From Bacteroidales bacterium (lineage in GTDB: Bacteria > Bacteroidota > Bacteroidia > Bacteroidales > VadinHA17), in NCBI GenBank assembly GCA_003141495.1, contig PLMC01000037.1:55554-90370 (forward strand): 34,817 nt of DNA, written 5' to 3'. A model generated the notes under the pieces. It saw only the letters and a program-made list of their open reading frames with translations, did no database searches and was not told the DNA's origin. Position 1 is the first letter of the stretch. Each line of letters starts with the position of its first letter. The translations under genes and the position numbers were made by a program. This document shows positions 19,221 through 33,048 of this stretch, one piece after another.

Positions 19221-19290
19221 ATTTCAGTTTTTGCGAAGGTACAAAAAGGAACCATAAATTTTAATACATTTGATTGATAATTGGAATGCA

Positions 19291-19575
19291 ATGACTGGAT
19301 TGAACTCGATATTTTCCCAATCTGCATCAATAGTTACCCGGAAAACAGGAAATGAATATGTGCTTGTACCCATTACAAACAACATAGCAGATATGAACAG
19401 CGTTTATACCCTGAATGAGACCGCGGCGTTCATATGGGAACTGATTGACGGGAAACGAAGTGTTGAAGAAATAATCATTAAATTGACAAATGAGTACGAT
19501 ATTGATAAACAAAACGCCGAGTCAGATGTTTTTACATTTATTGAAAATATGAGTAAATATCTTATAATACGTTAA
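19291..19575 (+). CDS. PqqD-like peptide-recognition protein (RRE)
   Basis: A 94-residue protein with the PqqD fold used as a RiPP recognition element, the part that binds the leader of a peptide substrate. Seen features are the N-terminal strand region ASIVTRKTGNEYVLVPI, the conserved YTLNETAAFIWELIDG and the helical SVEEIIIKLTNEYDIDKQ, ending in VFTFIENMSKYLIIR. I chose the ATG at 19291 because an in-frame TTG at 19270 lies inside TACATTTG (19265-19272), a likely -7 promoter box. It is the first of five tightly packed genes. PqqD homologues occur beside lasso cyclases, radical SAM maturases and HPr-kinase-like proteins; here only the last is present. Confidence 0.82.
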   Translation: MTGLNSIFSQSASIVTRKTGNEYVLVPITNNIADMNSVYTLNETAAFIWELIDGKRSVEEIIIKLTNEYDIDKQNAESDVFTFIENMSKYLIIR

Positions 19576-19622
19576 TTACATTTTTTACATGAATAGTATT
19601 TATAGATAATGTTCGGGAAAAT

Positions 19623-20510
19623 ATGAGGAATTTTAATTTAAACATTGCAGGATATAATATAGGGTTTGAGGCTTCAGCAAACGGACCGGAGCTTAAGCCT
19701 GCAGCAAGATTCCTCCGGAATATCAAGCCGAATAACAGCTCGGATATCCTTATCCGGGTTCATTCAGAACCATTTAACCTGCCAAAAGGAGCCGAAAGAG
19801 TTTTCCGGGCCCCATATGTTGAAGAAATTAATGGCATCCAGTTCAATAATGAAACAAACTTTTGGAGCGTCTGGAAATATCGTTCCGAGCTTTATATCTG
19901 GACAATCTTCCCACTTTCTGTTTCAGAAAAAAATGCGGTTTTGAAATTCTCACTTACATCTATGGAATGGGATCTCTGGATTTATGGCGCCAAGGATGAG
20001 ATGGATCCTTTCGAATATCCTCTGGATGGACTGATCCTGTATTACCTTACAGTTATAAATGGTGATATAATGATCCATGCATCGGGAGTTAACAATGCAG
20101 GACATGGTTATGTTTTTAGCGGAGTATCTGGGAAAGGGAAATCCACTATTGCAAAGCTCTGGGATGATTCAGGAGCCAAAGTGATCCACGATGACAGGCT
20201 TATCCTGAGATATACTGGAAATGGATACAAAATGTTTAATACACCTGTTTATAATAATGATGAACCTCGCGAATCACCTCTTAACAAGATTTTCATTATT
20301 GAACATGGTCCCGAAAATATCATGGTCCCATTAAAAGGAGCCAACGCAGTGACACAGGTAATGGCGAACTGTATACAACACAACTGGGGAGCAGATATTA
20401 TCGCCCGGCTTCTTGGTTCTATTTCGATTATGTGCGGAACAATTCCAGCATCAAAGCTTTTCTTCAGACCCGACAGAAGTGTAATTGACCTTATCCTCGA
20501 TAATGAATAA
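19623..20510 (+). CDS. HPr-kinase-like ATPase (RiPP-associated type)
   Basis: A 295-residue protein whose C-terminal half resembles HPr serine kinase. The P-loop is GVSGKGKST at 167-175, preceded by IMIHASGV and followed by VIHDDRLIL (Asp190, Asp191), in the positions of the kinase catalytic acids. The N-terminal half (1-140) is not recognisable and has aromatic-rich strands (WSVWKYRSELYIWTIF). True HprK regulates the PTS, but no PTS gene is nearby. Family members next to PqqD proteins (lasso peptide kinases, ScmC of the SynChlorMet cassette) are thought to act on peptides, so a peptide-modifying kinase is my inference. The next gene starts inside this one's final codons. Confidence 0.8.
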   Translation: MRNFNLNIAGYNIGFEASANGPELKPAARFLRNIKPNNSSDILIRVHSEPFNLPKGAERVFRAPYVEEINGIQFNNETNFWSVWKYRSELYIWTIFPLSVSEKNAVLKFSLTSMEWDLWIYGAKDEMDPFEYPLDGLILYYLTVINGDIMIHASGVNNAGHGYVFSGVSGKGKSTIAKLWDDSGAKVIHDDRLILRYTGNGYKMFNTPVYNNDEPRESPLNKIFIIEHGPENIMVPLKGANAVTQVMANCIQHNWGADIIARLLGSISIMCGTIPASKLFFRPDRSVIDLILDNE

Positions 20511-20955
20511 CGGGAGGAACAATCATACGATTTTGAAAGATATCGGACTTACATTACTCGCAGAAGGAAAAACCATCAGAATAAAAGCTCATGGGTATAG
20601 TATGTTTCCCTGTATTAAACCAGGTTCGCTCATTCTGATCGAACCATTGAACATAAAGGGTCTGCCACATCCCGGAGAGATTATTGCAATAAAGAGGGAG
20701 AACGGACTTATTGTTCACCGTCTTTCCAGGATAATAAACAAGAACGGTGTTACATTCTATACCGCCAGAGGAGATAGCAATGCATACGCCGATAATCCGG
20801 TTAAAATCGATAAAATAGCAGGAAGGATAGTTCGTGCCGAATCAACAGGCGAAAATCCTGTTCCTGCAGATATCAGAATTAACACAAGACCAAAATATTT
20901 TATTAACAGAATAAGAGTTATCGGGATAATTTTATGGAAGAAAATCAGATTTTGA
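20503..20955 (+). CDS. S26-family signal peptidase, Ser-His type
   Basis: About 150 residues. The catalytic serine lies in HGYSMFPCIKPGS (Ser33), the second conserved block is GLIVHRLSRI (His72), and the third is FYTARGDSNAYADNPV. The His in place of the Lys of ordinary leader peptidase places it with the SipW/ER-type (S26B) branch. A hydrophobic C-terminal stretch (YFINRIRVIGIILW) may anchor it; no N-terminal membrane segment is seen. The ATG at 20503 overlaps the previous stop by 8 bp and is better than the upstream in-frame TTG at 20485. It may process a peptide or protein exported by the adjacent transporter. Its stop lies at the edge of a palindromic repeat. Confidence 0.83.
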   Translation: MNNGRNNHTILKDIGLTLLAEGKTIRIKAHGYSMFPCIKPGSLILIEPLNIKGLPHPGEIIAIKRENGLIVHRLSRIINKNGVTFYTARGDSNAYADNPVKIDKIAGRIVRAESTGENPVPADIRINTRPKYFINRIRVIGIILWKKIRF

Positions 20956-21051
20956 CCCTCCTTTTCCCCATTGGGGGGTTTACTTACAAAGAGGATCCAG
21001 CAGCCCCCCATTTCGAGCCCGTCGAGGAAGAGAGGTTGGGGGCGAAAAAAA
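20953..21051. repeat. Palindromic C-run/G-run dispersed element, copy 3
   Basis: Starts at the stop of the S26 gene: ACCCTCCTTTTCCCCATTGG, GGGG, TTTACTTA spacer, then AGCCCCCCATTTCGAGCCC, GTCGAGG and a final GGTTGGGGGCG. It aligns with the minus strand of copy 2 (10232-10312), including the CCCCAATTGGGGGGTTAACT part and AGCCCCCCATTT. The second palindrome here has been altered by a short CGAGCCCGTCGAGG insertion. It separates the first three genes of the cassette from the exporter gene. Confidence 0.75.
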
Positions 21052-21073
21052 CAGGAGAAAGAAAAAGAATTAA

Positions 21074-22861
21074 ATGAGAGAAAAAATAAATCTATTCCGG
21101 GAATCATTAAAGCTTGTCTGGAACAGCTCACCAGGATGGACATTTGCAAATATTATACTGTCTGTGCTACGCAGTGTCTTTCCCCTCATGCTTATCTGGC
21201 TCCTGAAAATAGTTATCGATGATATTACCAGGGCAACCACAGCTGCTTCCTCCACTCCGAACATAAATTTACTTTTGCCGATACTGGCAGTTGTTATAAT
21301 CTGGTTTCTCGATGAAGCCTCTTCCGATTTCAGTAATTATGTCCGTAAAAAACAGGCTTTGAAGCTTGAGGTTTATATGTATGGTTTGTTGCATTCAAAG
21401 GCAATAAAACTTGACCTTATCAACTTTGAACGTCCCGAGTATTTCGATTGTCTGTCACGTGCCTCAAGAGAAGCCCCATGGCGTCCGAACAGCATCCTGA
21501 ATAATCTGGTTTCCATGCTTAGAGGACTCCTCTCCCTGTTACTTATGGCCGGACTAATATTAACTCTTCACTGGACACTTGCTTTACTTCTTCTTGTTGC
21601 AAATATTCCGGGAATCTGGCTGCGGCTCTATTATGCAGATATCCTGTATAATTTTCAGAGAGAGCAGACTCCCGAAGCCAGGAAATCAGCATATTTTAAC
21701 TGGCTGCTGACAGGCGACAGACCTTCCAGGGAATTGAGGCTATTCGGACTGGGAAATTATTTCATCAGTCTTTTCAGGAAGTCTTTCCTGAAACAAAAAG
21801 AGGAAGAGATCAATATCATAAGAAGAAGAACAGTTATAGAATTTGTATCCAATCTTTTTAAAGCATCAGCACTTTTGGTTTCTCTTTTATTTATCGCACA
21901 CCAAACAATCAGTGGAAAACTTTCTTTAGGTCAGATGGCAATGTTCCTGCTGGCATTCAGGCAGGGAATGATATATATAAAAGATTTATTCAGTTCGCTG
22001 GCAGGATTGTATGAAGACAGTCTCTTCATAGGTGACACATTTGAATTCCTGAATCTGAAGGAGAGTGTTACCGCTGCTGAACCTGTAATTGTGCCAGCTC
22101 CATTAAAGGAAAAAATAGTGGCAGATAATGTATCCTTCACTTATCCGGGGAATAGCTTCAGGACTATCAATAATGTCTCATTTGAGATAAAAAGGGGTGA
22201 AATAATAGCTCTTGTCGGACCAAATGGTGCCGGTAAAAGCACGCTTGTGAGGTTATTATGCAGACTTTATGATTCGGATTCGGGAAACTTAAAATACGAT
22301 GGCAGTGATATCAGGAATATTGATCCTGAAGAATACAGGAAACAATTTTCAGTTATTTTCCAGGACTTTATGCTTTACAATCTTACAGCAGGCGAAAACA
22401 TCCGGATGGGTAATATTGATGAAAAAAGTCCTGCTGTGAGGATAAAAGCTTCAGCAAAAAGTACCGGTGCTCACGATTTAATCGATAATCTGCCTAATGG
22501 TTACGAAACTGTCATAGGAAACCTGTTTGATGATAGTCGTGAACTCAGCTGGGGTGAGTGGCAGAAGATTGCATTGGCAAGAGCTCTCTTCAGGGATGCT
22601 CCAATACTTATTCTTGATGAGCCATCCAGCGCTCTGGATGCTGACACCGAATATGATATCTTCAGCCGGTTCAGGGAGATAGTTAAAGGCCGTACCTCGA
22701 TTCTTATAAGTCATCGGTTTACAAATGTCAATCTGGCCGACAGAATAATTGTCCTCGATAAAGGGGAAATTGCTGAAACCGGTACCCATGAGCAGTTAAT
22801 GAAGAGAGGTGGGATGTATTTCACCATGTTTACAAAACAAAGCAGCAGGTTTAACAGATGA
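21074..22861 (+). CDS. ABC exporter, fused membrane and ATPase domains
   Basis: A 595-residue half-transporter. Membrane segments span about 20-320 (for example NIILSVLRSVFPLMLIWLL and LLSLLLMAGLILTLH, then WTLALLLLVANIPGIWL). The ATPase domain (about 345-590) has Walker A VGPNGAGKST, Q-loop FSVIFQDFMLYNLTAGENI, Walker B PILILDEPSSALD and H-loop SILISHRFTNV. The ABC signature reads LSWGEWQ instead of LSGGQ or LSGGE, with tryptophan at the first glycine. There is no C39 peptidase domain, so any leader removal would need another protein, perhaps the S26 peptidase upstream. The ATG at 21074 follows a purine-rich run; the stop overlaps the next gene by 4 bp. Confidence 0.9.
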   Translation: MREKINLFRESLKLVWNSSPGWTFANIILSVLRSVFPLMLIWLLKIVIDDITRATTAASSTPNINLLLPILAVVIIWFLDEASSDFSNYVRKKQALKLEVYMYGLLHSKAIKLDLINFERPEYFDCLSRASREAPWRPNSILNNLVSMLRGLLSLLLMAGLILTLHWTLALLLLVANIPGIWLRLYYADILYNFQREQTPEARKSAYFNWLLTGDRPSRELRLFGLGNYFISLFRKSFLKQKEEEINIIRRRTVIEFVSNLFKASALLVSLLFIAHQTISGKLSLGQMAMFLLAFRQGMIYIKDLFSSLAGLYEDSLFIGDTFEFLNLKESVTAAEPVIVPAPLKEKIVADNVSFTYPGNSFRTINNVSFEIKRGEIIALVGPNGAGKSTLVRLLCRLYDSDSGNLKYDGSDIRNIDPEEYRKQFSVIFQDFMLYNLTAGENIRMGNIDEKSPAVRIKASAKSTGAHDLIDNLPNGYETVIGNLFDDSRELSWGEWQKIALARALFRDAPILILDEPSSALDADTEYDIFSRFREIVKGRTSILISHRFTNVNLADRIIVLDKGEIAETGTHEQLMKRGGMYFTMFTKQSSRFNR

Positions 22862-24030
22862 AAAGCGAAGTAAGGATAAGTGATGAAGAACACCTTCTGC
22901 TGGAATTATGCCGCCTTGAATTCAGTGATGAACAGATAAACAGGATCAATTCGCTTCTTGCTGTTATAACCGACTGGCCCTATTTCAGTAATCTTGCCAA
23001 CGAACATGGTGTTGCTGCACTGGTCTGGTATAATCTTGAGAAATATCAGCTTCATTCAGAAATACCTGAGGCTGCTGCCTATTTCCTAAAGTGCACATTA
23101 ATGAGGAGCCTGGGCCGGAATACATTCAATACCGAATCTATGGGTGAGGTTCTCAGGTTGCTTAATGCAGAGAATATCAAAATTGTTATTCTTAAAGGAA
23201 TGGCACTTGAGAATTCGGTTTATGGCAATCAGGGATTACGACAAATGTCAGATGTTGATATCCTGATAAACAGGGATGAGTGCATCAAAGCACGAAAGAT
23301 TCTTTTCCGTAACGGATATGTATCGCTTCCTGTAAAATCATTTTTTCATAAACTGATTCTGGCCTATTACGGCAAGCATCTTCCCTCACTCATTAAGAAT
23401 GGGACTTCTGTTGAGATACACCATGAGCTTTTCGGGGGAAGAAAAAACTTAATGACTAAAATGCTTTACAATAGCAGTTATATGCTTGAGATAAAAGGAG
23501 AAAAAGCCTGGTTTCCTCAGCCTCAGATCTTCTTTCTTTATCTGGTAAAGCATCTCTGGTTGCACGAGATGAATAATGAATCGCAACTCAGGTTATACAC
23601 TGATCTGATTGTTCTGATTGAAAAACATAATTATGAGATATTAAATTATAATCTCCTGAAATGCGCTTCAGATGCGGGTATGTCGGAGATACTTGCATGG
23701 CATCTGGAGCCGTTAAGAGATATATGGAGTGTTTCTTTCCCGGGATGGCTAAACGACTTTATTGATAAATGGCATAATGAGGATTTTATAGACAGGTTTT
23801 TTTTCTTCCTGAGGAGTCCAAAGAATAATCCATCAGGTGATAAGGCCGGATTTTATCGTCATATTCTAGCAGAGATTCCCGGATTCCATCGTAAGTTTCT
23901 ATTTATTTTAGGAGATCTCTTCCCAACCGTCAGTTTTATGAAGAACCGTTATAAATGTAAAAGTACATGGAAGGTATTGCTTTACTATCCGCATAGGTTA
24001 GGGAAGGTTTTATGGTTATTCAGGAAATGA
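22858..24030 (+). CDS. PF14907-type nucleotidyltransferase
   Basis: A 390-residue protein of the uncharacterised nucleotidyltransferase family often found in lasso and other RiPP clusters. The core motif is KIVILKGMALENSVYGNQGL followed by RQMSDVDILINRDECIKARK: the GxxL...R..SDVDIL pattern with paired aspartates that would bind the metal-nucleotide. ILFRNGY and NGTSVEIHHEL follow, also typical. The N- and C-terminal thirds are helical and unassigned. It overlaps the exporter by 4 bp (ATGA) and ends the cassette; a MITE-like repeat starts 14 bp later. Substrate unknown; nucleotidylation or phosphate-group transfer to a peptide or sugar is possible. Confidence 0.82.
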   Translation: MKSEVRISDEEHLLLELCRLEFSDEQINRINSLLAVITDWPYFSNLANEHGVAALVWYNLEKYQLHSEIPEAAAYFLKCTLMRSLGRNTFNTESMGEVLRLLNAENIKIVILKGMALENSVYGNQGLRQMSDVDILINRDECIKARKILFRNGYVSLPVKSFFHKLILAYYGKHLPSLIKNGTSVEIHHELFGGRKNLMTKMLYNSSYMLEIKGEKAWFPQPQIFFLYLVKHLWLHEMNNESQLRLYTDLIVLIEKHNYEILNYNLLKCASDAGMSEILAWHLEPLRDIWSVSFPGWLNDFIDKWHNEDFIDRFFFFLRSPKNNPSGDKAGFYRHILAEIPGFHRKFLFILGDLFPTVSFMKNRYKCKSTWKVLLYYPHRLGKVLWLFRK

Positions 24031-24781: not shown

Positions 24782-24966
24782 TATCAGCATCGGGAAGTGG
24801 ATTAGTCACAGAATTATTAGGAATTCCGGCTATTCAGCACATTCCGGTTTTAGAGGTCGTTCCTCGCTGCATTTTTCGTGCTTTTAGTCTCGTTCTTTTG
24901 AACGGAAGGTCGTCCTGACCGAGACCCCACCCCGGGAGAGTGCTGATTATCTCTCGGGGTTTTTTA
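24782..24966 (+). ncRNA. Candidate structured RNA ending in a terminator
   Basis: The 317-bp gap 24675-24991 has no ORF but dense pairing on the + strand. ATCAGCA at 24783-24789 can pair with TGCTGAT at 24941-24947, closing a domain of about 165 nt. Inside are GGAAT/ATTCC, GAGG-TCGTT-CCTC, GCA-TTTTTCG-TGC and an arm GTCTCG/CGAGAC that encloses CGTTC-TTTT-GAACG and GGTC-GTCCT-GACC. A terminator follows directly. A weak promoter (TTTG at 24744, TAATTTAG at 24770, 22-bp spacer) would start transcription near 24784. Either an independent small RNA or the 3' UTR of the HTH gene; I recognise no known family, and a divergent 6S-like RNA is only a guess. Confidence 0.45.
24930..24966 (+). terminator. 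Rho-independent terminator
   Basis: CCCC-GG-GAGAG pairs with CTCTC-GGGG (one-base bulge) around a ten-base loop and is followed by TTTTTT (24960-24965). It faces rightwards, so it ends the + strand transcript from the HTH gene or the candidate small RNA. Its loop carries TGCTGAT, the same bases that could close the upstream RNA domain. Confidence 0.8.
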
Positions 24967-25705: not shown

Positions 25706-25816
25706 TGTAACTATTCATATTATTTGTACATCCAAATTTACAAGATTAAGCATAGATTCTGAAGAGCCGGTTTTTTTAAATATGAAGAATTTCAATTATT
25801 TATTTACAAATATTGC

Positions 25817-26292
25817 GGTGCGATGCACCTCTCTAATCCATTACGTATCCTGCTACAAATATTGCGGTGCGATGCACCTCTCTAATCCATCATGTTCCCA
25901 TATTTTCTACAAATATTACGGTGCGATGCACCTTTCTAATCCATTACGTATCCTGCTACAAATATTACGGTGCGATGCACCTTTACAATCCATTTCATGC
26001 CATGATTTACTACAAATATTGCGGTGCGATGCACCTTTCTAATCCATTACGTATCCTACTACAAATATTACGGTGCTCTGCACCTCTACAATCCGTTTTA
26101 TGCCATTATTTTCTACAAATCGGTGCGATGCACATCTCTAATCTATTACATGCCATTATATGCTACAAATATTACGGTGCTCCGCACCTTTATAATCCGT
26201 TTCATGCCATTATTCTCTACAAATTTTTCGGCGCGATGCACCTTATAATTCCCTTACAACCGTTATTCTAAAAATATTTTGGTGCGAGCACC
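25817..26292. repeat. Left hairpin array (10 units of about 50 bp)
   Basis: Ten direct units, each with a palindrome GGTGC-NNN-GCACC preceded by TACAAATATT. Hairpin starts are at 25817, 25866, 25920, 25969, 26023, 26072, 26122, 26176, 26230 and 26281, so the period is 49, 54, 49, 54, 49, 50, 54, 54, 51, partly an alternating 103-bp double unit. Loops are GAT, TCT or TCC. Linkers are of two kinds, CTAATCCATTACGTATCC and CAATCCGTTTCATGCC. The last six units match the six units of the right array one for one. Long ORFs through it are periodic translations of the repeat. The repeat is part of the spacing too, so it is not a CRISPR array. Confidence 0.93.
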
Positions 26293-26484
26293 TTTGACAA
26301 TCGGTGCAAATATTTTTCCTGGAAAAGGTATAGCCCGTTGCAGCGTTTTTCATAATATAACCATTTACCATCAAATATCAGGATACACTTTTTGTTTAAT
26401 ACTTAGCAGCAGAGCTGCGAAATATTTGTAGAAATGAATTTATAAAATGAAACATAAGGTGCAGAGCACCGGAATATTTAATTC
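26293..26484. repeat. Left copy of the 192-bp array-terminal segment
   Basis: Nearly identical (about eight differences by eye) to 27257-27448. It starts TTTGACAATCGGTGCAAAT, and ends with two hairpins in opposite orientation to the array units: GCAGC-AGA-GCTGC at 26406-26418, followed by GAAATATTTGTAGAAAT (the reverse complement of the TACAAATATT leader), and GGTGC-AGA-GCACC at 26458-26470, 52 bp later. Its final 7 bp overlap the tnpA gene and provide its stop codon. The last 80 bp of the two copies appear identical. Confidence 0.9.
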
Positions 26485-26957
26485 CAACCATTTATATCAT
26501 TAAAGAATTCAAACAGGTATTCATTGCTAAATATAACCTCATTCTTTTCCAGCATTTCCAGGTATTCTTCTTTAAATGGTCTTTTTCTATGATGTTCTTC
26601 CTGCGATAAAATATATTTTACAACGTTATCAATTTCTGATCTTGAATAGGTAAATGCTCCATAACCTTTTTGCCAGTCGAATTTAAATTTAGACAATCTT
26701 TTTTCTTTAATCCATGCATTGGTTGCCGTTTTAATTTCTTCCATCAAATCAGGAATCAGCTGATTTACATTATATCCGATTAATATATGTATATGGTCGG
26801 GCATTGAACCAACTGCCAGCATTTTATGATGGTGGTTTTGGGCAATTCCGGTAATATATTTCTCCATTTCATTTTTCCATTCTTTTTTAATTAAAGCATT
26901 GCGGTTTCTTACTGCAAATACCAGATGGAAATAACATTGTGTGTATGTATTCGCCAT
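26478..26957 (-). CDS. IS200/REP-type HUH tyrosine transposase (TnpA)
   Basis: A 159-residue Y1_Tnp single-strand transposase. The HUH metal motif is MPDHIHILIG (His55, His57), and the catalytic tyrosine is Tyr115 in NVVKYILSQEEHHRK, with Gln119 as third metal ligand; all key residues are present. Opening residues MANTYTQCYFHLVFAVRNRN are typical of the Bacteroidota IS200-like group. It differs from insertion-sequence TnpA in its setting: it is sandwiched between arrays of small hairpins, as RAYT enzymes are with REP sequences. The start lies 21 bp from the first right-array hairpin and the stop 7 bp from the last hairpin of the left segment, and the stop codon belongs to the repeated segment. 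No TnpB partner is present. Confidence 0.9.
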   Translation of the reverse strand: MANTYTQCYFHLVFAVRNRNALIKKEWKNEMEKYITGIAQNHHHKMLAVGSMPDHIHILIGYNVNQLIPDLMEEIKTATNAWIKEKRLSKFKFDWQKGYGAFTYSRSEIDNVVKYILSQEEHHRKRPFKEEYLEMLEKNEVIFSNEYLFEFFNDINGWN

Positions 26958-26978
26958 TTTATTAATATTTTATATTTC

Positions 26979-27256
26979 GGTGCGATGCACCTCTCCAATC
27001 CATTACGTACCCTACTACAAATATTGCGGTGCTCTGCACCTCTACAATCCGTTTCATGCCATTATTTTCTACAAATATTTCGGTGCGATGCACCTCTCTA
27101 ATCTATTACATACCATTATATGCTACAAATATTACGGTGCTCCGCACCTTTATAATCCGTTTCATGCCATTATTTTCTACAAATTTTTCGGCGCTCTGCA
27201 CCTCTCTAATCTATTACATGCCATTATATGCTACAAATATTACGGTGCTCTGCACC
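26979..27256. repeat. Right hairpin array (6 units of about 54 bp)
   Basis: Hairpin starts at 26979, 27028, 27082, 27136, 27190 and 27244 (spacing 49, then 54 four times). Loops run GAT, TCT, GAT, TCC, TCT, TCT; the fifth unit has a GGCGC left arm, a mismatch also seen in the corresponding ninth left unit (26230). Linker types follow the same order as in left units 5-10, showing that array plus terminal segment was duplicated as a block. The array lies just upstream of tnpA, in what would be its promoter region. Confidence 0.93.
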
Positions 27257-27448
27257 TTTGACAATCGGTGCAAATATTTTTCCCGGAAATGGTATAGCCC
27301 GTTGCAGCGTTTTTCATAAAATAACCATTTACCTTCAAATATCAGGATATACCTTTCGTTTAATACCTAGCAGCAGAGCTGCGAAATATTTGTAGAAATG
27401 AATTTATAAAATGAAACATAAGGTGCAGAGCACCGGAATATTTAATTC
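27257..27448. repeat. Right copy of the 192-bp array-terminal segment
   Basis: Counterpart of 26293-26484. The inverted-orientation hairpins are GCAGC-AGA-GCTGC at 27370-27382 and GGTGC-AGA-GCACC at 27422-27434. It ends GGAATATTTAATTC at 27448, after which the two copies diverge at once. Its end provides the stop codon of the small membrane protein at 27442-27633. With the left copy and both arrays it brackets tnpA in a direct repeat of about 450 bp. Confidence 0.9.
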
Positions 27449-29344: not shown

Positions 29345-29370
29345 TTAGCATGGTAACGTTACCATACTAA
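29345..29370. promoter_or_regulatory. 26-bp palindrome, candidate operator
   Basis: TTAG-c-ATGGTAACGTTACCAT-a-CTAA: the inner 16 bp are a perfect palindrome and the outer four pairs continue it past one mismatch. It overlaps the last codons and stop of the HTH gene and lies 62 bp before the 55-aa peptide start. There is no U tract, so a protein-binding operator is more likely than a terminator. The HTH protein itself is the obvious candidate ligand. Confidence 0.45.
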
Positions 29371-29689
29371 GGTCGGAGAGCAGCGTACGGAAAAAAAGGA
29401 TTTTGGAGAAAATTTTTACCCCACCTGAATTTTCTTTCTTTTCATTATAGGTCAATGGCCGGAGTGAACATGTTACGGCTATGTCGTACGGCTGCATGTA
29501 AAAAAATGTCTTTGCCGATTTTGAATAGGCAATCGGCGCTCCGCGTGATCTTAATTCATCTATCAATTCGTAGAGACTGGTGCGGCTTACACCCAGCTGC
29601 CTTGCAAATTCTTCGGGAGTTCCGGTCTTCTGCCTCGAGACAAGTCTATGCATCATACTTATCCGGTCGAGATATTCAAATACCTTCAT
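29345..29689 (-). CDS. HTH regulator of the peptide locus
   Basis: One hundred and fourteen residues. The N-terminal 65 are an HTH_11/DeoR-like winged helix: RISMMHRLVSRQKTGTPEEF, ARQLGVSRTSLYELIDELRS, then RGAPIAYSKSAKTFFYMQP. The rest (DIAVTCSLRPLTYNEKKENS and a GGVKIFSKILFF segment) is characteristic of a group of short HTH proteins I associate with Bacteroidota double-glycine peptide loci; its function is unknown. It starts 13 bp after the exporter gene's stop and precedes both peptide genes, so it is probably in the operon and may control peptide expression. A palindrome overlaps its 3' end. Similar in its HTH part to the protein at 24465-24674. Confidence 0.78.
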   Translation of the reverse strand: MKVFEYLDRISMMHRLVSRQKTGTPEEFARQLGVSRTSLYELIDELRSRGAPIAYSKSAKTFFYMQPYDIAVTCSLRPLTYNEKKENSGGVKIFSKILFFRTLLSDLSMVTLPC

Positions 29690-29702
29690 ATTATATTGTA
29701 TT

Positions 29703-31871
29703 TCAGGTTTTAACTATTTCCTTAATATCAATTGTCTGGTGCGTCCACATCCTGCGAAACGGACCCTCAATAACTGACAGTTCTGCTAATGAGCCGTCCT
29801 GAACAACCATTCCTTTATCAAGCATTATAACTCTGTCAGCCATGTTAATCGTTGAAAGCCGGTGGGCAATCACAATTACTGTCTTATTTTCTTCCCTGAG
29901 TAACTTTAAAGTGTTTTGTACAAATATCTCCGCCAGTGAGTCAAGTGAGGAGGTGGCTTCATCAAGGATCAGAATCTGGGGATCGCGATAAAGCGCCCTG
30001 GCAATGGCTATTCGTTGCTGCTGCCCTCCTGATAAAGTAGCTCCGTTCTCTCCAAGGTAAGTATTGAATCCATGCGGAAGTTGTTCAATAAATTTTGTCA
30101 TCCCAAGCTTATCACAAACTTCAATCACCCTGTTCATATCAGGAGTAAAATTACCGACAGCAATGTTATCTACAACATTTCCGGAGAAGAGATCAATTCT
30201 CTGGGGAACCACGGAAACAACTTTACGCAATGACTGGTTGGTAAGATGACGAAGATCATAACGTCCGATGCGAATATGACCTGACTGGAGCGCATAGAGA
30301 TTTTGAAGTAATGAAACTAAAGTAGTCTTGCCGGAACCGCTCTCACCTGCAACAGCAGTTATCTCTCCCTTTTTTATTGTAAGATTCAGAGAATCGAAAA
30401 CCTCTACCCTGGTTCCATACCGGAACTTCACGTTCTCAAAATGTATGTCATCAATCATTTCAGGTTTTAGTTCTATCTTGTTTGCTTCATCTTCTATCTC
30501 AAGGTCAAAAATTTCAAATAGCCTGTCGGCAGCAATCCCGGCATCCTGCAGGGTGCGGTTAAAACCTATTACAGAGGTAACAGGACCAGTAAAATATCCT
30601 ACTACCGAATAAAATGAAAGCAGCTCCCCTGGCGTAATCTGTGAGCCGATTGCGTATCCCGCTCCCACCCACAAAACAAGAATTGTAATCAATTGTGAAA
30701 TAAGACTGGTAGAGCTTGATGAAAAAATACTGTTTAATCCTGATTTGTAAATTATCTCAAGAAGACTGACAAATCTGGTCTCGGTTTTCAAATTTGAAAA
30801 ATTCTCGAGGCCGAATCGTTTAATGGTCCCCGCTGAGTTGAGAGATTCCACCAATTGTGCCTCAAGATCTGCCGCTCTTTCCATAACTGTTCGCTGTACC
30901 TTCCTGTTAAGCCTGTTTGAGATATAATATATCAGGGTATAAAGAGGGACAACAATAAGCATGATAAGCGCCAGTTTCCAGAAGAAGGTAAACATCAGTA
31001 TAAAAGAAACTATCAGGATGAAGATGTTAAGAATGAAATTTATTGATACCTCATTAACAAATAAACGAATCTTGACTGCATCACCAATTCTTGATATTAT
31101 TTCACCTGTCCTCATGTTATCAAAGAAGGTCTGAGGCAGTTTTAACAGATGCTGATAGTATCCAAGTATAAGTGTCGCATCAATTTTCTGTCCGGTTTTA
31201 AGAATAAAAACTGACTGGAAAAAACTAAGCAGGAGTCTCAGTACAATAATGAGCACCATTGCAATGCCAAGCAGGTTTAAAAGGCTTAGATTCCCTCCCG
31301 GCAGTACGGTATCAACAAGCTTCCCCACATAAATTGACATTGCAAGTCCAAGTACTGAGAATACCAGTGCGCCAGCAAGCGATTGCAACAGAATGCCCCT
31401 GTGAGGTCTTATTAGATTCCAGAAGCGAACCTGGGCCGATACTTTTTCATTTCTGACTGTAAATTTCTCCCCGGGAGCAATAAGTACCAGCACTCCGGTC
31501 CACTGTTTTCTGAATTCTTCATGTTCAATCTTATGAAAAGCCCCATCTCCGGGATCCATGATCTCAATGTACTTATCCGTTGTTTTTATTAAGACCACAT
31601 AATGATGAAGGACCTCTTTCACAATAATATGTGCAATTGCCGGTTTTGGAATTTTAAACAGGCTATCCCAATCCCCTCTCACCCCTTTTGCCAGAAATCC
31701 CATTTTTCCTGCTGCTTCCACAAGTCCTAAAATATTTGTCCCTTTCTTATCGGTTCCGGCAAATTGTCTGATTCGCGCTACCGGCAATGCCAGTTTATAC
31801 CAGGCAGCGACCGAAGCAAGACAAGCTGCTCCGCAATCAGTAATATCCCTCTGTTTTACAGTTATTTTCAT
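29703..31871 (-). CDS. Peptidase-containing ABC exporter (C39, bacteriocin type)
   Basis: A 722-residue transporter that cleaves double-glycine leaders and exports the core peptide. The C39 domain (1-135) has catalytic Cys13 (TDCGAACLASVAAWY), His90 (LHHYVVL) and Asp106 (IMDPGDG), all present, so it should be an active protease. Membrane segments lie at about 155-440, and the ATPase domain at 475-722 has Walker A GESGSGKTT, signature LSGGQQQRIAIARAL, Walker B ILILDEATSSLD and H-loop IVIAHRLST. The HlyD partner is encoded 7 bp upstream. Two fitting substrates are encoded just downstream. Some relatives export other peptides, so the product class is inferred from the neighbours. Confidence 0.95.
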   Translation of the reverse strand: MKITVKQRDITDCGAACLASVAAWYKLALPVARIRQFAGTDKKGTNILGLVEAAGKMGFLAKGVRGDWDSLFKIPKPAIAHIIVKEVLHHYVVLIKTTDKYIEIMDPGDGAFHKIEHEEFRKQWTGVLVLIAPGEKFTVRNEKVSAQVRFWNLIRPHRGILLQSLAGALVFSVLGLAMSIYVGKLVDTVLPGGNLSLLNLLGIAMVLIIVLRLLLSFFQSVFILKTGQKIDATLILGYYQHLLKLPQTFFDNMRTGEIISRIGDAVKIRLFVNEVSINFILNIFILIVSFILMFTFFWKLALIMLIVVPLYTLIYYISNRLNRKVQRTVMERAADLEAQLVESLNSAGTIKRFGLENFSNLKTETRFVSLLEIIYKSGLNSIFSSSSTSLISQLITILVLWVGAGYAIGSQITPGELLSFYSVVGYFTGPVTSVIGFNRTLQDAGIAADRLFEIFDLEIEDEANKIELKPEMIDDIHFENVKFRYGTRVEVFDSLNLTIKKGEITAVAGESGSGKTTLVSLLQNLYALQSGHIRIGRYDLRHLTNQSLRKVVSVVPQRIDLFSGNVVDNIAVGNFTPDMNRVIEVCDKLGMTKFIEQLPHGFNTYLGENGATLSGGQQQRIAIARALYRDPQILILDEATSSLDSLAEIFVQNTLKLLREENKTVIVIAHRLSTINMADRVIMLDKGMVVQDGSLAELSVIEGPFRRMWTHQTIDIKEIVKT

Positions 31872-31878
31872 AAAATTA

Positions 31879-33048
31879 CTACCCTTTGGTATAGGTATAA
31901 GGATTGAACCATTTATCTGCCTTATCGAATAACAAATGATACAAACTCCGTCGGATTACCAGGATCCTGGTACTGAGGCTCATCCCCTTTTTAATTTCAG
32001 CTTTATAACCATTCTTTAGTGAAAGGAATGTTTTTTCAGGTTTACATTTAACCCTGAAATATGCGACTGATCCATCTTCAACTATCATATCATCAGAAAT
32101 ATCAATAATATCACCCTGCAGCATTCCCCATTCATTATAGTTAAATGCGTCTACCTGAATTTTAACTTTCTGTTTTTCGTGGATAAGCCCGATATCGGCG
32201 GGTTTTACAAAACAGGTCGCAACCAATTCTCCTCCCGGAGATATCTCCGCAATTTTCTGCCCCGGAGTTACAAGGCTTCCGGGCTGAATATCTGAACTTT
32301 GAATTATTTCTCCACCTGTCGGAGCAAGAACTATTCTGTTTGTAAGCTCCTCAGAGCACTGCTTTAATTCGGCAAGCAATTTGACCGAATCATTTCGACG
32401 TAAGGATAAGTCACTCTGCCATTGAGATTTCTGAGATAATAATATCTGATCCAGATTGTCTTTCTCGGAACTAAGCAAAAAGAGAGAGTTTTCATAATCA
32501 ATCTTCGGTATGATCTGCTGATTATAAAGAAGCTTATTCCGTTCATGTTCCGTTATCTTCTTCTGGTATTTTTGCAACTGGATCAGATGCTGATTTTTCA
32601 GATTCTCGAATTCAGCCTTATAGCATTGCGTAATTAATCCCAGATGATAAAACCGGCCTTCCAAAGAAGAAATTTTAGTCAGTTTTTCCAGGTCCTTCAT
32701 AGAAGCATCGTTTTCCCCTGTCCTCTGTTCCAGAGAAGTGTACTGAGCCCTTATTGATTCTCTATCAAAGATCAAAAGCGTATCACCTTTTTTTACTGCT
32801 TTTCCATTACGGATCGATGTATAAATAATTTTGCCCTGGAATGGAGCAAAAACAACCTGCTTTTCAATGTCCGATTGAAAATAGCCTCTGGCCTGCACTG
32901 AAACATCCACATTGATAAAAGGAAGAATGGCAATACTAAAAATGATCATCCCAATTATAATCCAATAGATGATCCTGCTCCTTGTATTTATTGTAACAAG
33001 GTAGGTTTCAAGACTGAATTTTGATATTGAGAATGGTATCAGGTCCAC
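31879..33048 (-). CDS. HlyD-family membrane fusion protein of the peptide exporter
   Basis: A 389-residue periplasmic adaptor. One membrane anchor lies at about 26-45 (IIYWIIIGMIIFSIAILPFI). The split lipoyl domain is seen as VFAPFQGKIIYTSIRNGKAV before and LAPTGGEIIQSSDIQPGSLV after a coiled-coil hairpin (about 105-245, rich in Glu, Lys, Gln and Leu). A beta-barrel region follows (VKIQVDAFNYNEWGMLQGDI, then IDISDD). It links the inner-membrane ABC transporter to an outer-membrane TolC-like channel, which is not encoded here. First gene of the operon. A lone TAAATTTG box is at 33160-33167 on the minus strand. Confidence 0.92.
   Translation of the reverse strand: MDLIPFSISKFSLETYLVTINTRSRIIYWIIIGMIIFSIAILPFINVDVSVQARGYFQSDIEKQVVFAPFQGKIIYTSIRNGKAVKKGDTLLIFDRESIRAQYTSLEQRTGENDASMKDLEKLTKISSLEGRFYHLGLITQCYKAEFENLKNQHLIQLQKYQKKITEHERNKLLYNQQIIPKIDYENSLFLLSSEKDNLDQILLSQKSQWQSDLSLRRNDSVKLLAELKQCSEELTNRIVLAPTGGEIIQSSDIQPGSLVTPGQKIAEISPGGELVATCFVKPADIGLIHEKQKVKIQVDAFNYNEWGMLQGDIIDISDDMIVEDGSVAYFRVKCKPEKTFLSLKNGYKAEIKKGMSLSTRILVIRRSLYHLLFDKADKWFNPYTYTKG

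Follow-up and report, generated by a model that had tools for sequence, protein, structure and literature searches.

For RAYTs, an enzyme accompanied by cognate hairpins that are dispersed, occur as inverted pairs and form ordered arrays beside the gene is a known arrangement (PMC2817692, PMC3116915, PMC8266576). Tandem REP/REPIN arrays, some of them beside RAYTs, have been reported in P. fluorescens SBW25 (PMC3116915), so that the premise of the first-pass annotation of the present locus, according to which REPs normally occur singly or in pairs, cannot be upheld. For TnpA-Y1 subclass 1.2, a Bacteroidetes/cyanobacterial group of low-copy enzymes of about 148-150 aa with the hallmarks DH[IV]H, WQ and Y---Q--HH, REP is recorded as 'no' (Quentin et al., 2018, PMC6006769). 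The automatic REP search of that survey demanded stems of 7 bp or longer with a GT[AG]G tag 0-2 nt to their 5' side (PMC6006769), and the hairpins described below would escape it because their stems are 5 bp long and have no such 5' tag. No description of hairpins for subclass 1.2 was found in the open-access literature; subscription papers and preprints lay outside this scope, and priority is to that extent not certain.

The locus described here lies in a stretch of 34,817 nucleotides of a Bacteroidales genome, hereafter the window. It belongs to the known REP/RAYT type, a domesticated transposase with its hairpins, and represents a branch of it that had not been recorded; the IS200-type enzyme of this branch is common across Bacteroidota.

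Hairpin arrays and transposase of the window

A pattern search identifies 18 hairpins of the GGTGC-N(2-3)-GCACC type at 25817-27434, 16 direct and two inverted, of which 14 match GGTGC-N3-GCACC exactly, compared with 0.0 in simulated sequence of the same dinucleotide make-up. The direct units flank the transposase gene in the number given by the first-pass annotation: ten in the left array (25804..26292, plus strand; hairpin starts at 25817, 25866, 25920, 25969, 26023, 26072, 26122, 26176, 26230 and 26281) and six of the same type, found by the same pattern search, in the right array (26972..27256, plus strand; starts at 26979, 27028, 27082, 27136, 27190 and 27244). A left-array unit typically reads [C/T]TAC-AAATATTnC-GGTGCnnnGCACC, which on the other strand is a hairpin, 9 nt and GTAG; the minus strand of the direct units is GGTGCnnnGCACC-GnAATATTT-GTAG. 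CTAC is missing from the first right-array unit, as it is from other element ends. With the tag included, the left edge of the element, which had been delimited as 25817-27448, lies slightly further out, at about 25804.

A 197-bp module is present in two copies (26288..26484 and 27252..27448, both unstranded) that are 96% identical at an offset of 964 bp. The duplication around the gene is therefore as annotated, but the proposed size of about 450 bp is too large, since the 197 bp together with the adjoining units come to about 365 bp. Both copies carry a variant hairpin which, as read from the sequence, is followed by GTAG after 9 nt. In copy 1 it is GCAGCAGAGCTGC-GAAATATTT-GTAG (26406..26431, plus strand), with GTAG at 26428-26431 and a spacer of exactly 9 nt; in copy 2 it is found at 27370..27395 on the plus strand. 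Each copy is closed by one of the inverted hairpins, which start at 26458 and 27422. The first, GGTGCAGAGCACC with the end box GGAATATT (26458..26478, plus strand), abuts the tnpA stop, and the second, GGTGCAGAGCACC-GGAATATT (27422..27442, plus strand), forms the right end of the whole element; the end box was judged against the consensus from 50 dispersed-element ends.

Spacings between hairpin starts are 49, 54, 49, 54, 49, 50, 54, 54 and 51 bp in the left array and 49, 54, 54, 54 and 54 bp in the right one. An alternation of 49 and 54 bp, as first described, is found in the left half of the left array and not elsewhere, while the suggested double unit is supported because the best-scoring periods of TRF are 103 and 108 bp. 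A CRISPR identity was considered for the array and ruled out, because its spacers are near copies of one another. An Rfam scan of 24-29 kb gave no known RNA family above noise.

The tnpA gene (26478..26957, minus strand) is an intact ORF for a Y1 HUH transposase of 159 aa (Pfam Y1_Tnp, E=3.5e-26) with DHIH at 54-57, WQ at 95-96 and Y115---Q119--H122H123. The four residues singled out by the first-pass annotation (H55, H57, Y115 and Q119) show no variation in two alignments, one of 22 and one of 37 sequences, and neither do H122/H123. By motif match, DHIH, WQ and Y---Q--HH (YILSQEEHH) place the enzyme putatively in TnpA-Y1 subclass 1.2. The low intragenomic copy number and low identity of that subclass are found here as well, with three Y1 genes in the window's own genome and paralogue identities of 36-67%. 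The two further genes of the same type (L001 and L003, contig C40) have other hairpins nearby, which were read by eye as ACACCGGAGGTGT / ACCGCTCCGCGG, and CCCTTCGGGG.

TnpA passes the NCBIfam IS200 model and fails the REP_Tyr_transpos model (31.7 bits vs a cutoff of 80), and the residues after Y115 are ILSQEEHH, so that the RAYT NP motif is absent after the catalytic tyrosine. An AF2 model built from the 37-sequence alignment has a pLDDT of 91, and its nearest solved folds are the TnpA proteins of ISDra2, IS200 and IS608, with E. coli RAYT (4er8) scoring lower. The enzyme is thus not a classical RAYT and is predicted to be of class 1 (IS200-like). Calling the system RAYT-like was apt as to function, in that the HUH transposase is accompanied by cognate hairpins of its own which also occur elsewhere in the genome, but not as to the RAYT clade, in view of the two model scores and the subclass 1.2 motifs.

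Two CPBP (Rce1-like) proteases flank the hairpin element. The genes at 19270-24030 and 29345-33048, which include those encoding a PqqD-like protein, an S24 peptidase-like protein, an ABC transporter, NTP_transf_5, a C39-peptidase ABC transporter and an HlyD protein, look like a peptide-modification/export neighbourhood. An intergenic stretch of 66 nt at 24900-24965, which is 84-97% conserved in several genomes of the same genus and ends in a GC-rich hairpin and a T run, is possibly a small RNA or a strong terminator; it has no Rfam match.

Hairpins beside related transposase genes

A scan of genome contigs with an alignment of relatives provided 80 tnpA loci, from Bacteroidota and a few records under other names, and whole genomes provided 32 more, giving 112 loci that are mostly from Bacteroidota, the cyanobacterial members being left out. 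The first-pass annotation had asked whether related TnpA genes have no such arrays; relatives across the phylum do carry repeated hairpins. Within 800 bp of tnpA, one 5-bp-stem hairpin occurs in at least two and up to 15 copies at 95 of the 112 loci, and no repeated stem is found at the other 17. When the vicinity of tnpA was compared with regions 2-2.8 kb away at the 79 loci with enough distant sequence, repeats were found only near the gene at 69 loci and only far from it at none (paired test, p=3e-21). The explanation that the hairpins are chance or low-complexity repeats unrelated to the gene could appeal to a stem of merely 5 bp, but is refuted by the shuffles, by these far controls and by a reversed-pattern control, which gave 0 sites in the window's own genome compared with 30 for the GGTGC hairpin; we consider it practically out of the question.

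In 150 units from 62 loci, the hairpin is followed on its 3' side by the tetranucleotide [A/G]TAG after exactly 9 nt, whereas any other offset up to 41 nt accounts for 0-21 units. Despite differing stems, the sequence leading up to this tag is conserved, with roughly nnA[A/C]T[A/G]TTK before it and AA after it. Neighbouring hairpins have a pitch of 46-56 bp at 48 of 77 loci, typically about 51-53 bp. The anatomy of hairpin, 9 nt, [A/G]TAG and a pitch of ~51-53 bp is conserved, and the 'no' entered under REP for subclass 1.2 needs correcting. The aligned hairpin units show no conserved tetranucleotide on the 5' side that could act as a guide in the manner of IS608. At one locus (L061), the region upstream of tnpA (-762 to -196) has a denser array of GGTGCGTAGCACC with a 39-bp pitch and without the GTAG tag; elsewhere in that genome (G061:C25:149095-154562), ~80 one-strand copies of GTCCCACGCGGGAC at a pitch of ~67 bp resemble a CRISPR array.

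The stems vary by clade and include GGTGC, GTCCC, GCTCC, ATCCC, GCCCC, GTTCC and others. The same stem is shared by 0.4% of the TnpA pairs at 30-40% identity and by 87% of those at 80-95%; the Mantel r is -0.36, the permutation extreme being -0.17, and 48 stem changes are counted on the TnpA tree vs at least 63 in shuffles. Of 13 pairs of paralogues from one genome, with TnpA identities of 36-67%, 12 have different stems. The sequence of the stem follows the phylogeny of TnpA. Counting bare 5-bp hairpins over whole genomes was rejected as a cognate test and replaced by these flank-based and within-genome tests, because such counts are confounded by a CRISPR-like array and by the presence of several TnpA families in one genome. 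For example, the genome of an ATCCC-flanked locus, that of Dyadobacter sediminis, holds 161 GCTCC hairpins, and a second, GCTCC-flanked TnpA is also found there. Among the TnpA positions, only E32 predicts the stem slightly better than permutations do (0.34 vs a maximum of 0.33), and it is not relied on.

Were the hairpins transcription terminators, or mRNA-stability or attenuation elements for tnpA and its neighbours, with a secondary link to TnpA, the 14 terminator-like matches in the region (1.3 expected) and the intergenic position of the studied element would be accounted for. The co-variation of stem and TnpA, the paralogue-specific stems, the fixed and one-sided [A/G]TAG at +9 and the dispersed elements far from tnpA would be left unexplained, and we regard this alternative as very doubtful. 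It is possible that hairpins have been co-opted as terminators or stability elements.

Dispersed elements with hairpin ends

The GGTGC hairpin is also found far from tnpA in the window's genome and its relatives, usually in inverted sets of 64-430 bp; lengths of about 97, 146, 197, 248 and 300 bp, in steps of ~51 bp, are typical. The ends of these elements are sharp: 50 outer ends share hairpin-GNAATATT, in which each fixed position is the same in 43 to 49 of about 50, with conservation up to 8 nt and no conserved target sequence beyond the end boxes seen in these 50 ends. The GTAG of inner units is missing from most outer ends.

At one orthologous intergenic site, the element is present in four species (G000, G035, G019 and G005) and absent from 12 relatives, and the corresponding gene pair without it is 29-33 bp apart between the flank matches in G017, G018, G020 and G001. 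As the relatives are too diverged for the exact empty-site junction to be readable, the element may have been lost and not gained at this site. The window's genome and G035, which represent two close species, share four orthologous elements with closely matching flanks and with interiors that are replaced or re-sized; in one pair (L024/L141), nearly the whole stretch between the terminal hairpins differs and the terminal hairpins and flanks stay. These comparisons reveal that, between species, elements are gained or lost and their contents turn over within limits set by the hairpin boxes. An inverted hairpin pair, defined ends and presence or absence at a site, by which REPINs and BIMEs are recognized, are all found in the dispersed elements.

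It is quite conceivable, if not our favoured reading, that the hairpins are cognate REP-like sites but that the arrays and their copy-number changes come from replication slippage or unequal recombination of 51/103-bp repeats and not from TnpA. The higher-order units of 103/108 bp found by TRF, adjacent spacers that are near copies, a 964-bp offset duplication that resembles a segmental duplication and the unit indels that separate orthologous elements would all follow from such processes. The same pitch recurs, however, in clades with unrelated spacers and stems, and slippage alone does not give the L024/L141 pair. The replaced interiors may point to more than slippage in the making of the arrays. 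The suggestion of the first-pass annotation that the enzyme itself amplified the arrays is a conjecture, the same picture being expected if units of 51/103 bp slipped or recombined unequally.

Several dispersed elements of relatives (L153, L149, L146 and L157) retain, beside a hairpin, just the final 20-30 codons of tnpA, and some elements may therefore be deletion derivatives of tnpA-bearing copies. L146 (G019:C344) is on a contig that also matches the window's CPBP gene, and another tnpA copy survives on contig C212, which suggests that tnpA was lost at the L146 site in G019. Such remnants, together with the IS200 model and the IS200/IS605 TnpA folds, would also be expected of an ordinary IS200/IS605 insertion sequence with multiplied subterminal hairpins. 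Against this explanation, which appears unlikely, stand the low identity of within-genome paralogues (36-67%), unlike that of IS copies, the many direct and inverted hairpins in place of one per end, and hairpins that far exceed tnpA in number (161 GCTCC hairpins vs 2 tnpA in G070). The gene is also almost missing from plasmids and phages: two Bacteroidota plasmid records have a good match, TnpA is absent from 50,697 phage records, and phage/viral collections are empty or nearly so, as expected of a domesticated enzyme.

In four draft genomes with hairpins (G035, G006, G027 and G032), no close TnpA was found, which speaks against the link of enzyme and hairpin. Most of the relatives are drafts, however, and arrays break assemblies: contigs C8 and C119 of the window's 3.5-Mb draft genome end in hairpins, and the G035 contig corresponding to the window's flank stops within the array. 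Gaps in draft assemblies may partly explain such genomes.

Proposed mechanism and comparison with known systems

Based on what is established about TnpAREP and IS200 enzymes (PMC8266576, PMC5934647) and on the anatomy described above, we infer binding, cleavage, the strand used, the cleavage site and TnpA as the cause, and propose that the locus is probably a REPtron-like system whose enzyme, a Y1 transposase of class 1 (IS200-like, subclass 1.2), recognises and cuts its own hairpins. TnpA would recognise its short hairpin as folded single-stranded DNA with the [A/G]TAG tag 9 nt 3', and would cut and rejoin DNA beside the hairpin, by which units and elements may be excised or rejoined. The tag may itself be cut, as a site on the 3' side of the hairpin like the one cleaved at the right end of IS608, or it may serve for recognition, with the cut between AATATT and TGTAG, which would fit the element ends. 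Inverted hairpin units would give rise to small non-autonomous REPIN/MITE-like elements of about 64-430 bp, bounded by hairpin-GNAATATT, that could insert in intergenic DNA. Tandem units of 49-54 bp may build up beside tnpA and inside dispersed elements, either because units insert repeatedly or because they recombine with one another. More tentatively, and with the odds somewhat against it, the system may represent a second, independent domestication of an IS200-type enzyme into a REP-generating one, in a class and phylum other than those of RAYTs, with an enzyme that builds both dispersed elements and regular arrays of near-constant pitch (~51-53 bp, close to five turns of the helix) from hairpin-N9-[A/G]TAG units.

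These results provide a recognisable candidate substrate for a transposase subclass previously without one, and extend REP/RAYT-type biology to a large part of Bacteroidota, in whose genomes many unannotated intergenic hairpins would be explained. With dozens of natural enzyme-hairpin pairs that have different stems and one constant tag, the reading of hairpins by HUH enzymes, the spread of REPs and whether regular arrays are made by the enzyme are directly testable. New are the enzyme class, the phylum-wide extent, a tag that lies 3' of the hairpin at a constant distance of 9 nt, the end box and a pitch that hardly varies.

With IS200/IS605 elements (IS608, ISDra2; PMC5934647), the system shares the protein fold, and its hairpin with a nearby tetranucleotide recalls the hairpin and cleavage site at an IS end. 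Unlike them, it forms no fixed IS with one hairpin per end and no near-identical copies, and has no tnpB beside the gene in the window and no visible guide tetranucleotide. Rarity on plasmids and absence from phages also set it apart from insertion sequences and are as reported for RAYTs.

The likeness to the REPtron (RAYT/TnpAREP, class 2; E. coli, Stenotrophomonas and Marinomonas; PMC2817692, PMC8266576) is closer: a low-copy HUH Y1 enzyme is flanked by its own hairpin family, with a GTAG tag, enzyme-hairpin co-evolution, several independent systems per genome and intergenic dispersed copies. Inverted cognate hairpins flanking the gene and genome-wide dispersal, by which RAYTs are recognized, are found for the window's system, and in Marinomonas the stem of REPMb is likewise 5 bp long, with REPMb clustered in the vicinity of its tnpA. 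The present enzymes differ in being of class 1, with Q--HH after the catalytic Tyr where class 2 has the NP motif, in having [A/G]TAG 9 nt 3' of the hairpin and not the GT[AG]G of RAYTs at its 5' foot (0-2 nt), and in the near-constant pitch of ~52 bp and the GNAATATT end boxes. As in REPINs, the tandem REP/REPIN clusters of P. fluorescens SBW25 (PMC3116915) and BIMEs, inverted hairpin pairs appear as the mobile unit, and as in the SBW25 clusters, tandem arrays are ordered, some adjoin the gene and each enzyme has a separate family. The system differs from REPINs and BIMEs in phylum and enzyme class, in the single-orientation tandem units within one element and in element lengths that change in steps of ~51 bp.
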